A stretch of 64,000 nt of DNA from assembly GCF_016859285.1 (NCBI RefSeq), contig NC_053403.1, positions 19,435,448-19,499,447 on the forward strand, in the 5' to 3' direction. Within the stretch, counting starts at the first letter, position 1. Each line of letters starts with the position of its first letter. A model generated the notes under the pieces. The model searched no databases, was not told the DNA's origin, and worked only from the letters and a program-made list of their open reading frames with translations. Made by a program: the position numbers and the translations under genes. Shown here piece by piece: positions 1-59,893 of this stretch. The stretch is from Xiphias gladius. Lineage: Eukaryota; Chordata; Actinopteri; Istiophoriformes; Xiphiidae.

Positions 1-3000
1 TAAATTGTTACTTATAAAATAGGCCACATTTAAACTTACTTTTGTTTGCCTTGTGCAAAGCAAATTAGGCCTACTCTAAAGAAGCAGCAACTTGATGCGA
101 AAAGAGTCTAGGCAGTATAAGATAAAAAAAATTGCTATACTCTGAGTGCTAATGGTGAATTCTAGGCCACTGCCTTTGACACACCTAGAGAAGTGATACC
201 AGGCTCATCTAGAGCACAGGGAGCAAGGTGCAGCACTATCCATTTGAATCCAACTTGCTCTATGTATACCTCTCTCTTCTCATGTATCCTGATGATGAGC
301 AGCTTGCCCCATCCCTTTGATGTTAACGTATGGATGTATGCATTTAACACTCTTACACAATCAGCAAAGGTACACACCCACGCACAGCCCTACCACACAG
401 CACATGCGTGCATGCACAAAGAGATCCACATACACAGCCTCATTCTCCTGAAAGTTCATACCAATACAAACAAATATACATCACACAGAGGGGCAAGGAT
501 ATAAGTAATTTAGCACAGTTTGACACTTTCACGGTCTAATTAGCCCAAGTGTTGCAGTAAACACGTCCCCATGACCCTCCAGTTCTGGTTACTCATTAAG
601 TATAGATAAGGTTGAAGATGGCCAGCTTCTCTCATCCGTCAGGACCTGACTCATCACATTAGTAGCTACCCAGAGCCCTCTAGAACCTCAGGACGAGCCA
701 TAGATTCAACCAGCAGCTTCACAGATACAGTTTAACAGAAAACAAACAATTAATCCCCTTCCCTTTGCTGTTGTGTGTTTGCATCTGCATGTCATGTCCA
801 ATTCTGTCCATATTTCTTCATGCATTCATGAGCACATTCACAGGAATGTGTGAAGCAGTTTCAAGGAATGCATTAGAGATGCTGCATAGCGTGCAAGAAA
901 ACAGGCAGCCCTGTTGCCTGCTTGCTGCTGCTGCCTTTAATGCGGTCATAGGGATTTTCCTCTCTCTCTCTCTCCCTCGCTGTGTTGCAGTAGCAGACGT
1001 GGCCAGCAAGCTGTGATCAAACTGTGCCTTTATCAATTCTCTCTCTCTCACTCACTAACTCACTAACTCATCAGCTGGCAGGCTTCAGTAGCAGGACGCC
1101 CCAGATTCTCAGACCAACTCCCTCCTCTCATCTAGTGCAGAGGTTGCTAGCTCTCTACTGTTGAGCTCTACTGACACCCTCTGGCCAGAGATGTGGTAGT
1201 GCACCGGGGAAGTGCAAGCAGGGCCTGTTTAGCTGTTTAAAATGAGGGAAATTTAGATACACAATCTTCACTAAAACTTCATAGTGTTGACCATGTGGCA
1301 AATTATAGCAAAGAATATGTATTGAAAACATCAGTTTTGGTAATAAAGCTCTATCTAGAGGAAATTTTTAACCAATTAGCCTTTCAATTGATTCCACCAA
1401 ATTTTTGAATATTACCAATAGAGCAATCAAAGGTTGCAGGGGTTCCGCATGAGTTGTCCGGACAGGCCCGAGGACAGGCAGATAGACAGTGAGGGGGGCA
1501 AGAAAATGGTATTTCAGCACAGATCCTGAATCGATACCAGTATGTTGGGTTAATCTAGTGAGTGGCCCTCTGGCAGAAATAAGTGACTGAAAGATTAAAC
1601 AGCACAGCAGACCAAAGAGCCTTTATCAAATAGGACTAGCTCAGCATTTTTCTCCTAAATAAGCCACTTTTTTTGGCCCAGAGGAGTGTAGCCAGGGTTA
1701 AGCAAACCTCAGGGGTGACTTTGGGTTGAGCACTGTCAGGGACTTTCTGCCTTTGTACACTGGAGTATTATATAAGATTTTATCTAAGCTTTTTGTGCAT
1801 GCTAGGCCAAATCCAATAGGATATTTAATTTCTATGCCAAACTCTGATATTTTTTTCATCCGAAGCTCTTAAGTCAAAGAAAAGGAAATTAGCTCGACTC
1901 AAACTGAGCAGTGCAGGTTGATACTGTAATTGCCTAAATACAGACACTTTCTTTTTGCTAGAAAAGCAGGAAGGAAGGACAGTAGAAACACAATACTACC
2001 AAAATTAGGAATCTCTGCTCTCTTATGAATTGTTTGTGTGCAGGTTAGACTATTCAAATGATACAAAACAAAATCTTTAATCAGCTATACATGCATTGAC
2101 ACAATTTCAGCTTTTTCCTTTTTTGGAAAAGGAACCATGATGCATAAAAACAAAGGAGAAATAAAAAAACAAGTTCTACTCAGTGGAAGCCACATTAGGC
2201 CTCACCAACACTTTTTCTTTATGTTTATGGTATAGTGTTGCAAGCAGCTCTCTTTACAATACTATTGGCAGGTAATACTTTGAAATATGTATGCAATGCT
2301 GAAAGCATAAAGCACCACATAGACACACAAAGCAAGATCCCCTTCAATTAACATAATTTACATTGGACGGATTGTATGCACAAAAATATCCCTTAACCTT
2401 GCCTTTTCTTTGTACCGTTTAAACATCAATGTTGAGGAACATTTTTACTGACAGCAAAGAAGAAGACAAAGGGGAATAAGCAAAGAGAAGTGACAACAGA
2501 AGAGGTACAAAGACAAGAAGACAGGCAACAGGAGATACTATTGATTTTTTAGAGATGTAACATTTACACTGCAGTACTTAATAAATGATCCTCTCTGTTA
2601 TTTTATTCATAGCAGACACAAACAGGCTGAATAAAGAAAAAAAAAAAGCTGAAAAATGGCTTTATGAATTACAAATCCAATTCTGTTATGAACTCACCAC
2701 CAAACATATGCAACCCAAACCCGTGGAGTAGACCTTTTTTGGATCCTGCCTTAAAAGGGAAATTCTGCTATAGTTCAACCTGGCCTATTTCCCATCAACT
2801 TTGCTATTGTCACTTTATGAGTGAACCTAACTTAGCAACAAAGCAAGTGGCGCAAGCCTCCTACAGCTTTCAAAATAAATATGAGTTTTACATGAATCAT
2901 TTCAAATCCTTGTCTCTGACTCCAACAGAACGTCGACACAGAAAGTAGCTGCCTGGGGTAGCCTGCATAGGGAGCCACAAAAGCCACATGTATGGGAAAT

Positions 3001-3463
3001 ATGCCAGGTGGAAATATTTTCCTTTAAATGTTAAGTTCTAGGCACTGTCAGACGCATGGCAACATGATAGGAGACAGAGGGAAGAATCAACTAAACTGAA
3101 AATACACTGTCGCCTCTATATACAGGGCACCTCCCATTTCTGCATGTTTAGGCTTCTTTTCCAACCATTATGTTTTGCTTAGTGCATGGGGCTGGCCTTG
3201 GTTTGAACTTAAAAATATAATGTTGGTAATATTACACTAAAACATCAACACATCAACAGATCATTTAGTACAGTGGCTCCCAAGCGGGTTTCAACAAAAC
3301 CCTGGGGTGTTCTTGAAGAAGAGTTTTATCTCATGTTAACAATATAATAATTTACTCAACATTGATTAATCATTCTCCGTCTCTATAGTGACACTTGTAC
3401 ATTTTTTTCTTTACTAAATCAAACATTTTCTCAAAGTGGGGCCCCTGGGGATCCTAATAAAGA
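1..3463. other. Left flank, no gene recognised
   Basis: AT-rich sequence downstream of brms1l with scattered homopolymer runs and (CT)n stretches near 958-975 and 1040-1060. The open frames here (for example 193-504, 765-1016, 2664-2948) have no family resemblance, splice context or conserved motif that I can recognise. Part of it could be a long brms1l 3' UTR. Confidence 0.6.
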
Positions 3464-4067: not shown

Positions 4068-7000
4068 TTATGAGTGCTTAATAGTGTATTTGCCTTTCTG
4101 CAGTTGGGAGATGTACAGCTTTGACTTAGTGCCATCCAGTCGTTTGAACCACACCTCATCGTTGTTGATTGTGGTGATGATGGCACTGCATGACACACAG
4201 ACAGGACAATGTTAGTGCAACACCAAACTACAATCCTCACAGTCATTTAGAGGGTTTGCATGTGATGTTACTGTAAACAGAAGTTGATGGCCACTCCTTC
4301 CTGAGTGGCAAACACTCAACAGTTAGAATCTGCCATCAAAAATTCAAAAACAGAAATAAAGTGAGGGATGGAATCTACTACTAAATATGTGATCAGTACA
4401 GTCTCCATTTTATCATTGTTGTCTCTTTTGATATGATACTGGATAATTCCATGTCAAATCAACAGATTTTAGAAAATATTCCCAACTGATGATCTTAGAT
4501 TTGCTTCATACTTCATGTAAATAGTGTCATTTAACCCAATAACTAGTGTGCAATTTTTTTGGCATGTATCTCCTTTAGTTTCTGAGATATGGAGGCATTA
4601 AAAAAGGGTTTGTGGCTTTAATGATAATTATGCTTAAAAATTGCAAAGTTCCATAAATCATTACTTTTGAACTATTTGTTTTACATGCTTGGAATTTTCA
4701 GGGATTGTTCCACACTATTAAATGCCTTTAACTTCTGAAATGGTTGGCCTACTGTTGCATTTCTGCCAAGTTATGGCTTGCTGAAAATTGTATTTAAAAA
4801 ATTCTTTCATGCATTGGAGCCCACCATATCTTCACACTGAATCACTTCAGATCTTTGAAAAAATGTTTTTTATATAAATACTCATGTTATAGTACTTTCT
4901 TCACAACTAGGTGCAAGTCTGAAACAAATCAAACTTTCCGATTTATGAAAAACAAAATCATTTCAAACCAGTTTTTCTAGAGCATATTTCTGGCTAGATT
5001 TTACATTTTGCCCTCAGACCACTGACTGACTGGTATTTTGTACGGACCACTGTATCACAGCTCTACCTATACATATGCCACCCAGTGGTGTTGAAGGGGG
5101 TTAGTGTTATGCTGTGAAAAACTGACATCAGTGCATTTCCTCTATTCAGTGTACATCCTGTCCTGAGAACACACAGGGCACACGAAGAGCAGAATGTGGA
5201 ATAACAGCTAAAACTCACATTGTCTTTGGTTAAATCAATCCATGATCCTTTCCATTACAAATAATGCACCATGTGACCACACTGCTTCTCAGTCACAGAC
5301 TCACACAATGACTCAGAAACACAAATTGGCAGATGAGCATGTACATGTCATTTAGCTTTATAAATCTCTCACGCTATAACCAAAATCCTCACTCCCTCTC
5401 ATTTTTAGAAATAACAGTCTATTCTTCAATAACCCCCCCCCCCCACACACACAAACACATGCACACACCTCGTCGGGTACTCGTCCTTTCTGTTGATACA
5501 GATGGTCTGTCCCCTGCAGTACCACTGGTTGTCATAGAAAAGTCGACCGTCCTCAGAGTGCACCACATGGTGATGTCTGTCAGGCTTTACTGCAGGGACT
5601 GAAGGAAGAAAAAGAGAAGGAAAAATTGGGTGTGAAAGAGATGAGGAGACAGGGACAGGGAAGGGAACAAATGACTTAGGGCAGGGTAAGGTTAAAAGAA
5701 ATACAGTACAAAGCATTAAAAAGGAGGACAGAGGGACAAAGGCAACATTTGTCTCTTTATCAATGAACTTTAGCACTTTTGGCAGAAAGTATCGAATCAA
5801 CTGCTCCTGTGGAACTATGGGTCGATCACTGCACTCAGACAGCTATTGACTGTAACCAAGGACAAGGAGAAACTCTTACCATCCACCTTCACCCTGTGTG
5901 GCCCCAGCGAAGCCATCGCCTGCATGGGGGAGAAAACAGACACAACTCGAAAAATCAAATCAAAACTTAAGATCAACATAGATGCATTTACCAGTTGACT
6001 AGTTTGCCCATTATCATAATAATACCTTTCTTATTGCAGTCCAGTCTTCAAGAATATCCAGATCTTGCAGCATGTAAACAATATAAGGCCGTAATGGAGA
6101 GGTTAAGGTTGAGTAAGTGATTCTAGAGAAAGAACTCAACAGCCAAACAAATATAGCCCTCCCTTCGGTGCTCCTTCAGAAGCTCTGCCCCCCAAAATTC
6201 ATGGATGTGCATTGCTAAGGCAACTACACAATTGTGGAATCCAGAGAGTCTCTTATGGCATGGAAGTGGATACTCTCTCTTCTCATGGCTGAAGCAAAAC
6301 AAACCTTGTAATAAAAAAAATCATCAAGCAAACAACATACAAAAAAAAGAAAAAAAACAAAAAACAAAAAACAAAAAACACAGCACCCAAAACACAACAG
6401 AGTAAAAACTAGCCTGAGTTAGTTTAGACTGTTCTCACAAAAATACAATGAAGGAAGTGAAACCGTAGGTTTGTAGCCAAGCTAACAAGTGAGGTAACAT
6501 GACCTAGCATTTTGAATTATGCATCACTCCAAAAAATTCCCCTGTGCTAGCAAACATGTGTTTTTAGGTCTTCGTGACTATAAAACCGTTTACACATTGT
6601 ACGGATAGATACCATAATTTACAGCAAAGAGACAGCAAACTGTTGCTGCTGCGAAGCTAACATGCAGAGAAGACAAGACAGTTTTCCAGGGCCAGCGTAC
6701 CAGCTGCAAACAGCAACAACTCTCCTGCTACTATTGCTAACATCACACCAACACAATATCGTGGTAAACTAGAAAGTAAGCTGAATGTCCATGGGCAAGT
6801 AATTTACCGTCAAAAACATTACTGCCCTATGGGCTCTGTGAAACATAGCAAGACTAATGTTTTACACACCTGTCAAGCAGAAACAGAGCAACCTCTGCAT
6901 CTGTCTTAATGTCTTTCAACCCTCAGAGGTCTCTCCACCACCGGAAAGTCTCACTGATATTAACACGGCTCCTCGCCATGGCTTGATCACAGCACTTCTT

Positions 7001-10000
7001 TTCAGTTTTTGTTTATCTGACCTTCTCCTCTTTGGCTTCTCCTCTTCCATGTCTCATTCTTGGCAATGTGACTAAGTATACGCTGCTGTCATGCTGCCGC
7101 CAGTAAACATTTCTTTCCATGCACTCGCTTTAACATCACCACCGGTGTCTCATCTGCAGTCCCAATCAATCCCATTCAAAACTCCACATAGTCTGCCAGC
7201 GACAGATGGGTAGAATGCTCCTTCTCCTTTCCCTGGTAATCCTTAAATTGGCAATATCTGTTAGCATGTGCCAGATTTACCGTCCCTCGCTCCCACCGCC
7301 CATTTCCCCCATCTCCCCTCTTCACCATCTCCTTTCCCTTGTCCTGTGTACGAGCATGAATGCCCCCTGTTGCCCATTGGCTGAAATAGTGTTTTTGGCT
7401 CGGTCCAAGACGTTTTGTTTGTTTCCCATTTTCAGAGCCAGAGCAGTGTCGGAAAACCAGAGTTTTTTCAGCACGCAAACAGAACGGACAGGTAGACTGT
7501 GAGGAGAATTTCACTGAATTTGACAAAAACTGTATTGCATTAGAATCACTGACTATACCTTTAACAGCATGACACTGAAGTGCTGCGGCAAAATGTGGTG
7601 CAGATGACCTATGGAAGGAATAAGACAAGAACGGGACAAAAGGAAAAGGATATCAGAAACAACAACAGGCTTCTTCTTCTTGACTGGGCAGAACGGGTCT
7701 TTTTTCTTGTTTTTCCGTGAGTGCAATCCATCATTCCACAACTCTAGGAAACAAAGAGGACAGATTACAGCGGGGGGGTATTATTATGCTTCTGCGTCAC
7801 TTCCTTCTATTGAATATTTGCTTCCTATTTCAACCTGTTTTATAGACAGTAAGTACAAACTTCGAATGTTGTCGGTTAACATATTCTTGACCAAATTCTC
7901 AATGTTTATTCATTGATTCTTCATTAGCGCCACTAATTATACCCTGTAAGGTGTGTGAGTACTTAAAAATTAATTCTACAGGTTTGTCAACTGACAGTTC
8001 CCAGTTGGAATAAATTAACTGCTTTATTTATTGTTCAATGAAAATATTAAATATTTACTAATTACTGCCAAGCAAAATGAATACAAGGAATGCTTTTCTC
8101 TATTTCATAACAATATAACTGAATACTGTGGGCTTTGTGGATAGTGGCTGCACTAAGTAAGCAACTTTAGGATGTCACTGTAAGCCCAACTTATGATTGG
8201 TTTTGACATTTTTTTGACTAAATGATGAATAAATGGATGAAAACCACATTTTCTTCAAACAATGGTTTGTTGAAGCTTTGGTTGGTACCTGAGGTAATGT
8301 CAATACTGTGTCTGTCTTCTTCCAATCTTCTTATCTTTTCCTCAAGTTCACTCTGCACAGTGTCAAACAGCAGCAACTTCTCACTCTGGAGGGGAGAAAG
8401 AGAGGTCAACAAACACACAAAGTCATCAATCTCAAATCTCCAGAAGTAGGACTAGGGTTGGAATTTATTCCAGGTAGTGCTTCCTTTGGTGAAAACCCAA
8501 ACATCCAAAATTACAGTGTATTTCCTACATTGTTTAGGGAATTGTCTGTTGAACAAAATCTATTAATCTATTAATCTATTAGGTACCTCACATAAGCCCT
8601 GACTCAAATGTTGGCCTCTCACCTCCCAGTGTTGGCAGGCTGCCTGGATCTCACACTCGTACTTATTCTTCACTGACTCCAAACACAGCTCCCTGTAGAT
8701 CCCTGCAACAAACATTACTGGCAAATCAGCAACCAACAGGAAAGATGACAAACTATAATCTTTAAATTGCAAAGCGCATGCTATTAGTTAAATATCATTG
8801 CAGACATTGACAACTGAATAAGTGCCAAGTCCTGCTATGCTCAACTTGTTTCCTATATAAATGCACACATTAAGGGTTAAGGCTGGGGGGGTTTGATCCC
8901 TGAAAGAATTCAATGTAATACCTAAATATGTAAGTAAGCAACAAAGACTGAAAGATTACTCGGACTCACCAGCCACTTTGGTCCTGATTTGCATGTTCTC
9001 CTGCAGGTTGGCTAAAGGTTCCAGATACTCTTGGGCACAGCCAGCCATTACCTCCTGCAGCTTGATGTCCACCTGGTTCAGACGCTCCTTGTACAACCTA
9101 AGCAGCACAAAATACAGTAACAAAGCACATCAATTCATAAGGCTGAACTGAGGCGTAAACACTTCATTATTATTGAGGCATTACTGTGAGTCTAGCACCT
9201 GTGGTGAATTTACTTTCAAGGCAGTTTCGAGAGTCTAGCAATTGTCTTGAATTGGTCTTAAAAGCCAATTGACCACAGTGTCCATACACAAGAACATAAT
9301 AAAACACAGCTGGGAGTAATCACATTACTCTACTCTCACTGGTCTGGGCAGAGCATCAAAATCATGTCCTTACTTCTCAAGGAACCGGATGCTTTGGCAT
9401 GGCAGGGGGCCATTTACTTAATCTTTGTCAAATACACCAGCCAAGATTACACATTTTAAAAGCCAAAAAAATTTTCAAAACTGAATGTCACTTCCAAAGA
9501 ATGGACAGTTACACACCGAATGGCTGCTAGAAGTCAGAAAGAACGTAGCCAATGCAGCAAGAGCCAAGATCTACCAGCACCTAGCTGGCTGATGTAGATT
9601 TCTCACCCAGAATTGTCACCTGTTTTCATACCTGTGAAACAGAATGCAGCTAACCATCGCTGTGGAAAATATCTAGGCAAGTAATCTGACCCTGCAAAAG
9701 ACCCTGACCAAGATTCAGGGCTTGACATCCAGGTTAACCTTTGCTCCATTCAGTGCGATTTCAGTGCATGGTCCATTTCATTCTGAACATCAGACTGTCC
9801 ATGCTGACTACTGAGTGTGTACAAATTCTATTTTAATGATATTATGTTGATTAGTAAGGATTAATGTGAAGAATATCTAAGAGAGAGTATCTTAAATAGT
9901 CAGATGATATGACAAGCATCTCAGAGTCTCTGACCCAGACTATGGTAAGTTTTTCATGAAGAACACTGTTAATTCAGGACAGACAGCTTAAAATGAGGTC

Positions 10001-40069: not shown

Positions 40070-40194
40070 TAATGGCTCATGGCTGTAGCTTCATATTTAC
40101 CATACAGATGTGAGAGTGGTATCGATCTTCTCATCTAACTCTCTGTAAGAAAGCCAGTAAGCCTATTTCCCAAAATGTTGAATTATTCCTTTAA
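40070..40194. repeat. Dispersed fish repeat, family A, copy 3 (3' part only)
   Basis: Blocks 'tggctgtagcttcatattta', 'gagagtggtatcgatcttct' and 'tttcccaaaatgttgaatta' followed by 'ttcctttaaaac' match the ends of the copies at 14518-14972 and 16427-16826. Orientation is the same. Confidence 0.75.
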
Positions 40195-58500: not shown

Positions 58501-58996
58501 AAATAAACATAATTACATCTTACATTTAAAAGAGGCTATTATCAATATGAACAGTTGAGCACAACTACTTTTATTCGAAAGGTGTCACACGTAGTGATTA
58601 AGCCACAGATAATTATCACCCAGCTCTGCAGGTGACATCCACTCTACGGAGCATTTTAGCATCTTTTGCGCTCATTGTTTTGGTTTTCGGGACCACAACT
58701 TTGGTTTTTTGGCTCACTCTCACTGCTCTCAGAGGGTTGTTTTTGGCTGCAACAGGGAGCTGTTTTTAGCAACAAAAAAAAAAACCCCTGAATGCCCACA
58801 GTATGCTCGCTGTCCAGCACCAATCGGCAGACAGACAGTAAACAGCAAGCTGGTAACCATCTTTAGCTTTAGCAGCTGCCACCATTTGCTTCCACAAAAG
58901 GGGTTGCTAGTATGTGGCTAGTTCAGTGAATGCTTTGTCTGAAAATACGCACCGCATGAACAAACAATTCTAAAAAAGGACCTTAAAGGGCCTTAA

Positions 58997-59732
58997 AGGA
59001 GTAGTAAGTGATTCTTGAGAAAGACTTGATATTTGAACTCAAAAGCAAAACAAATACATCCCTTTCTTCAGTGCTCCTTCAGAAGCTCAACCTCCCATTT
59101 CAGGGATCCACATTGCCAGTCAGCAACACTAACAACTGGGCTGGCTGACCAAAAGAGAAATATGGATACTCTTTCTCATAGCTGAAGCAAAACAAACAAT
59201 ATATTATAGAACGCCATCAAACAAATGACATGAACACAACATCCAGCATCCAGAGTTAGTTGTTTAGATTGTTTGATAAAACTAAAGTGTCAGAAGAGAA
59301 GACCGTAAGTTTGTAGCTAAGCTAACAAGTTAGGTAATGTTACCTGGCATAGCATTTTGAATTATGCATCAATACAAATAATCCCACTGTGCTAGCAAAC
59401 TTGTGTTGTTATGTCTTTGTGGCTTTAAAACCCTTGAGCAAATGCCATGAGCATATGTCAACAAGACAGAAAACTGTTGCTGCTGTGAAGCTGACATGCA
59501 GAGAGGATGGGACAGTTTCCCCTATGCATGAATGCCCCCTGTTGTTGATTGGCCAGAAGAGTGTTGAGTGGCTCGGTCCGAGTCAGTTTGTTCCCCATTT
59601 ACAGAGCCTGGGCCTTTAGGAACATCAGATTTTTTTTCAGTGCACACACAGAACGGAAAGCTAGTGGACCATGAAGATATATTCAGTGAATTTGACAAGA
59701 AGTGTATGGGATTTGAATCACTGACTATACCT
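58997..59732. mobile_element. Non-autonomous TTAA-flanked inverted-repeat element, copy 2
   Basis: Flanked by TTAA at 58993-58996 and 59733-59736. The left end is AGGAGTAGTAAGTGATTC; the right end, reverse-complemented, is AGGTATAGTCAGTGATTC. The interior follows that of 6107-7560 but is about half as long, as expected for internal-deletion derivatives. The frames 59389-59619 and 59568-59759 arise from it and are not supported as genes. Confidence 0.75.
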
Positions 59733-59893
59733 TTAAAGCCCCTGAAATCTTGGTTTTAAATCTTGACTATTTCTGTGTAACAGTAATATTCCAAACTATA
59801 TAAGCAAAAATGAAAGTCACAATTCAGAAAAAAATATTCAATGGACAATATAAGGTAACAACCCCACAACAACTAGATTTTGATTCAAATATA

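Follow-up and report, generated by a model that had tools for sequence, protein, structure and literature searches.

A probable insertion of a Kolobok/T2-like element at the branch-site core of a U12-type intron of brms1l in Xiphias gladius

Passages on the Kolobok superfamily and on T2 miniature inverted-repeat transposable elements (T2-MITEs) give as their marks TTAA with RR..YY ends and, in T2, AGGRR tips (PMC6004289, PMC9587614), and one passage of another source mentions BRMS1L in discussing minor-intron genes (PMC3728624). Minor introns rely on a branch motif that is strongly conserved, so that an insertion inside it should be harmful. In the window analysed here, a stretch of 64,000 nucleotides (nt) of Xiphias gladius (C4:19435448-19499447; 690.8 Mb of genome were searched), a U12-type AT-AC intron of brms1l contains a Kolobok/T2-like element that probably entered at the only TTAA of an intron then 105 nt long, an insertion that was apparently tolerated, with the branch core kept and the half of the motif upstream of it replaced by the end of the element. 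The split motif still leaves a good match because the target duplication and the motif core coincide. An earlier, first-pass annotation of this DNA, made without database searches, had stated that no described case was known to it; none appears in the literature on mobile elements within minor introns or at U12 branch sites, represented mostly by titles and the opening lines of abstracts, and the string "transpos" does not occur in the main text of the U12 surveys PMC10639083 and PMC7367187.

The brms1l intron and the element within it

The exons of brms1l were located by tblastn with a BRMS1L protein sequence as the probe. On the minus strand, the exon upstream of the intron occupies 7654-7743, its own start after CCTAG having been read by eye, and the downstream exon occupies 6026-6090 and is followed by GTATT; the stitched exons match Pfam Sds3 (E 1.8e-17). 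The intron between them (6091-7653, minus strand, 1563 nt) opens at 7653 with a perfect ATATCCTTTT donor, which fits the U12-type ATATCCTT donor, and ends in CCTTAACCTCTCCATTAC, with the acceptor ..CCATTAC at 6091 and the frame kept across the junction (TCT G/GG CCT TAT, S-G-P-Y). The genome possesses a U12 small nuclear RNA (snRNA) gene (RF00007, 125 bits), which contains the pairing stretch GTAAGGAA and also carries GAGTAAGGAAAATAACG. Removal of this intron by the major spliceosome, or with use of splice sites within the element, is highly improbable given the AT-AC ends, the perfect donor and the in-frame AC acceptor, and no support for it was found, although no systematic search was made. 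Judging from its sequence, the intron would still be removed by the minor spliceosome, with CCTTAAC as the putative branch in use.

The Kolobok/T2-like element, an old non-autonomous DNA transposon, occupies 6107-7560 and lies between the two copies of its target duplication, a branch-side TTAA (6103-6106) and a donor-side TTAA (7561-7564); together with one TTAA it accounts for 1458 of the 1563 nt of the intron (93%). Its terminal inverted repeats are 21 nt long and 86% complementary, the arms as reported by the tool being 6105-6125 (plus strand, branch side, including two TTAA bases) and 7541-7561 (minus strand, donor side, including one). These repeats could pair across the intron (6102-6130 with 7540-7564, minus strand), with a predicted duplex of -22.8 kcal/mol that would cover the CCTT and AAC of the branch motif. 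The middle of the element belongs to the same family, and a nested insertion there is ruled out by copy L095, which aligns over 30-1459 in one piece. A broken coding-like stretch is present on the minus strand of 6103-7564, around 7060-6860, where other family copies read, for example, KRRRSEEQKLKKKGYDRARGKTPVNIGEAFQRW; the 38-residue remnant in the window copy has no Pfam match. No transposase was found, though no search aimed at one was made.

When the host flanks are joined, they form an intron of 105 nt in which TTAA occurs once, at position 90 and as part of GTTAAC. Since this sole TTAA is the branch core, a TTAA-specific element entering the intron had to land on it, and one TTAA still stands beside the host C at the old distance from the acceptor. 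The present branch motif, AACCTTAAC (6102-6110, minus strand), is composed of AACC from the element, the duplicated TTAA and the host C; it matches TTCCTTAAC at 7/9 positions and lies 11 nt from the junction, within the 10-15 nt at which a TCCTTAAC-like branch was taken to indicate the U12 type. An alternative branch inside the element, TTACTCAAC, 6 nt nearer the donor and also with 7/9 matches by eye, was considered, but it lies 17 nt from the junction, outside that range. The first-pass annotation had described the locus in largely these terms, and the sequence and the reading frame agree with it as to the limits and minor-class donor and acceptor signals of the intron, the 93% share of a single inverted-repeat element between the two TTAA sites, the growth from about 105 to 1563 nt, the 3' TTAA as the core of the U12 branch motif, the retention of TTAA near the acceptor by target duplication, and the origin of the upstream CC in the terminus of the element.

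The element family in the genome

A second, shorter family copy, with TTAA at both ends, is found in the window (58993-59736, plus strand). The genome was searched with 298 bases of the branch-side end, and 40 of 319 candidates, the window copy included, were scored; ends were then counted in 40 fetched loci (the 39 other scored candidates and a stretch covering the second window copy) together with the window copy itself. Among the 53 ends recognised by their subterminal motifs (up to 6 mismatches; one row of L091, a repeat sighting of its other end, was left out), TTAA is exactly in register at 38 and lies somewhere in the 26 nt ahead of the motif at 45, so that in other copies too the boundaries fall on TTAA, as the account given in the first-pass annotation requires. 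An AGG tip is present at 32 of the 38 in-register ends. Both ends have TTAA in register in 10 of 18 two-ended copies, of which the brms1l intron copy is not one. A duplication of 2 bp or 3 bp as the rule for the family is ruled out by these 10 copies and by the second window copy, which by eye fits only TTAA.

A wider, partly overlapping set of 80 loci plus the window, half of it drawn by a pattern that itself contains TTAA, comprises 76 distinct ends with TTAA and 23 rows without (these 23 not checked for duplicates), and CCT precedes TTAA at 59 of the 76 ends in this partly pattern-selected set. Allowing up to 3 mismatches, a 34-nt pattern of the family end matches 185 times and its reversed control not at all. 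Copies measure 646 to 1784 bp where both ends could be placed, with tips that read AGGAA or AGGAG in some and AGGTG or AGGTA in many. Three family loci (L064, L065 and L071) cover a nearly identical span of the element, as though a single insertion had been duplicated. The median Kimura two-parameter (K80) distance between the brms1l copy and the 40 fetched loci is 0.22, corresponding to a divergence of about 0.11 per copy if the family copies radiated together.

End patterns also matched 10 stretches and 1 stretch in viral_contigs, with nothing but A-rich matches outside the pattern. The 18-mer AAGGTATAGTCAGTGATT there, situated in one conserved, probably coding (not translated) stretch of ten metagenomic viral contigs (L001-L010), is a chance match to the element end, and that stretch is unrelated to the element. 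An end-pattern search of genome_contigs gave 43 stretches, none of which matches either window copy at E 0.001. Elsewhere in the window, a stretch at 40194 on the minus strand, which we take to be a common fish repeat, starts with TTAAAGGAATAATTCAACATTTTGGGAAATA; its tip ATTCCT beside TTAA would resemble a U12 branch motif, and its far end was not found.

The branch site before and after insertion

The same genome has two related genes. At the corresponding place, a likely brms1l paralog on C10 (L107) carries an element-free AT-AC intron of 171 nt that ends in TGTCCTTAACCCTGTCCAC and already has TCCTTAAC, which contains CCTTAAC. In a further relative on C12 (L108, C12:6951500-6957500, about 2766-3020), probably brms1, the intron at that position is of the GT-AG kind (GTAAAT..CACAG), in contrast to the AT-AC introns of both brms1l genes, as expected of a change between U12 and U2 type.

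The predicted pairing with GUAAGGAA is -6.8 kcal/mol for the consensus, -6.5 for the paralog, -4.9 for the present motif, -3.3 for the present motif with a full family tip and -0.9 for the joined flanks; with a longer U12 piece the values, in the same order, are -9.0, -6.5, -4.9, -3.3 and -2.0 kcal/mol. The family tip AGGAAGAG would pair at -5.1 kcal/mol. When all 1024 5-mers are ranked upstream of TTAAC by predicted U12 pairing, TTCCT falls in the best 1.7% and CTCCT in the best 5.2%, TCCCT and CCCCT are within 10.6%, and CACCT, TACCT and AACCT are within 14.8%, while the piggyBac-type TAGGG ranks at the bottom. This ranking suggests that U12 would pair more favourably with T2-like tips than with most random sequence.

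Because the paralog without the element has TCCTTAAC, the left flank GCTG of the brms1l intron may be either ancestral or decayed after losing its role, and a rough weighing with assumed priors makes the two about equally likely for the G before TTAA. One reconstruction of the earlier branch, to which we give somewhat less than an even chance, has a weak pre-insertion branch, GCTGTTAAC, bettered by the element end: the joined flanks read GCTGTTAACC, the pairing would have risen from -0.9 to -4.9 (-2.0 to -4.9 with the longer U12 piece), and at a divergence of about 0.11 per copy most flank bases should be unchanged, but the paralog sequence speaks against it, the U12 consensus has C before TTAAC, making an earlier G unlikely, and after the insertion nothing would have kept the left flank from decaying. 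The proposal in the first-pass annotation that the element improved a poor branch thus stands balanced between the weak pairing of GTTAAC in the joined flanks and the better motif of the likely paralog. A replacement without gain comes close to an even chance: here the branch would already have read CCTTAAC, like that of the paralog, before its upstream half was swapped and the left flank later mutated to GCTG. Since the family tips outrank most random 5-mers in predicted pairing with U12, the swap would have been mild, but both of the last two left-flank bases must then have changed at about 0.11 per site.

The branch-side end of the brms1l copy is one base shorter than that of the family (TTAAGG versus TTAAAGG), reading ..CC/TTAA on the sense strand where the usual end is ..CCT/TTAA. 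The present CCTTAAC results from this short end; a full family tip would give CCTTTAAC at the branch. Accordingly, of the earlier proposal that an inverted repeat ending in CC(T) restores the consensus, the supply of CC by the element holds, but the restoration does not follow from the full tip and needs a one-base loss or a 3-bp duplication. A search for the short form gave 126 matches; among the 100 listed, 5 end in TTAA at that spacing, the brms1l copy included. In three of the other four (L136, L095 and L073) the sequence is CTTAAA, which a T-to-A substitution could explain; the brms1l copy would need two substitutions by that route. Its short end may reflect either a one-base loss or a 3-bp TAA duplication at this insertion, since the copy fits a TTAA duplication only with one tip base missing; passages on some KolobokP families report duplications of 3-4 bp (PMC9587614). 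It is conceivable, though rather unlikely, that selection after the insertion trimmed CCTTTAAC to CCTTAAC and so restored splicing. The usual CCT/TTAA tip, the 5 short ends among the 100 listed (this one included) and a predicted improvement in pairing from -3.3 to -4.9 kcal/mol are in its favour, but it is one case, and a 3-bp TAA duplication yields the same sequence without later change.

The events that appear most probable are that a Kolobok/T2-like element inserted at the single TTAA, the core of the branch site; that duplication would have left one TTAA adjoining the host C, as far from the AC acceptor as before, keeping TTAAC; and that the half of the motif upstream of TTAA would have been exchanged for the element end ..CC(T), a fairly good fit to U12 snRNA. 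Several observations weigh against this account. The paralog has CCTTAAC without any element, so that the element may have contributed nothing of use; an ortholog with CCTTAAC and no element had been named in the first-pass annotation as contrary evidence, and L107 comes near to being one, but is a paralog rather than an ortholog. The one-base-short end calls for either a further event or a duplication of 3 bp. The order of the energies depends on the snippet: with longer flanks and the longer U12 piece, the present motif (-7.0 kcal/mol) beats the paralog (-6.5). In the predicted fold of the whole intron, ACUCAAC, whose last C is the first base of the motif, pairs with the element (probability 0.78-0.90), as do donor bases 4-11 (0.76-0.94); such pairings could weaken the branch and donor sites; folds of 1.5 kb are unreliable.

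Recurrence and likeness to known systems

The first-pass annotation had further supposed that TTAA-targeting elements are predisposed to hit minor-intron branch sites. C follows TTAA at 14 of 76 family ends (two of them those of the brms1l copy itself) and in 5 of the 30 copies that the end pattern retrieved, compared with 172 of 1080 readings in the window (540 sites, two strands); the family therefore has no preference for TTAAC, and the supposition is not supported on this count. Among the 14 C-followed ends no second U12 intron was seen in flanks of some hundred bases to about 1.5 kb, beyond which a distant donor would escape. Copy L093, which has GTATCCTT 1555 nt upstream, was rejected as a second case because the approximately 150 downstream bases covered contain no open exon. 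Extrapolation from 540 TTAA in 63,500 window bases gives about 5.9 million in the genome, and the family may be put, crudely, at about 336 copies (185 pattern matches divided by 22/40). With at most about 700 minor-intron genes, a human figure given in PMC12332006, the expected number of branch-core hits for this family would be at most about 0.04, which makes the event uncommon for one family; the figure is to be read in the light of the existence of other TTAA-type elements and of a case picked after the fact.

A T2 tip YYCCT followed by TTAA and C gives YYCCTTTAAC, which departs from the U12 branch consensus by a single additional T. That T2/Kolobok ends are in this way preadapted to U12 branch sites, entering repeatedly at the branch core, handing over a working site, and so making minor introns longer and replacing their branch motifs with the class preserved, is an idea that we consider improbable. 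The locus suggests a simple rule that can be tested, namely that TTAA elements may be found in TTAAC branch cores, and a way in which minor introns might lengthen and come to have altered branch sites.

As far as the available descriptions go, the element shares with the Kolobok superfamily and the T2-MITEs of Xenopus (PMC6004289) and with KolobokP (PMC9587614) the TTAA duplication, the AGG tip, the RR..YY ends and the existence of non-autonomous copies, but AGGRR is the tip known there, whereas many tips here are AGGTG or AGGTA. With the U12-type AT-AC introns treated in passages of PMC3488318, the brms1l intron shares the ATATCCTT donor and CCTTAAC 11 nt before the AC end, at the same place as in its likely paralog; it differs in that the upstream half of its branch is transposon DNA. 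Transposon-supplied splice signals and Introner elements, reviewed in PMC10228655, likewise involve mobile DNA that gives part of a splicing signal; in brms1l, however, no new intron is formed, and an existing minor intron appears to keep its class while part of its branch motif is exchanged.

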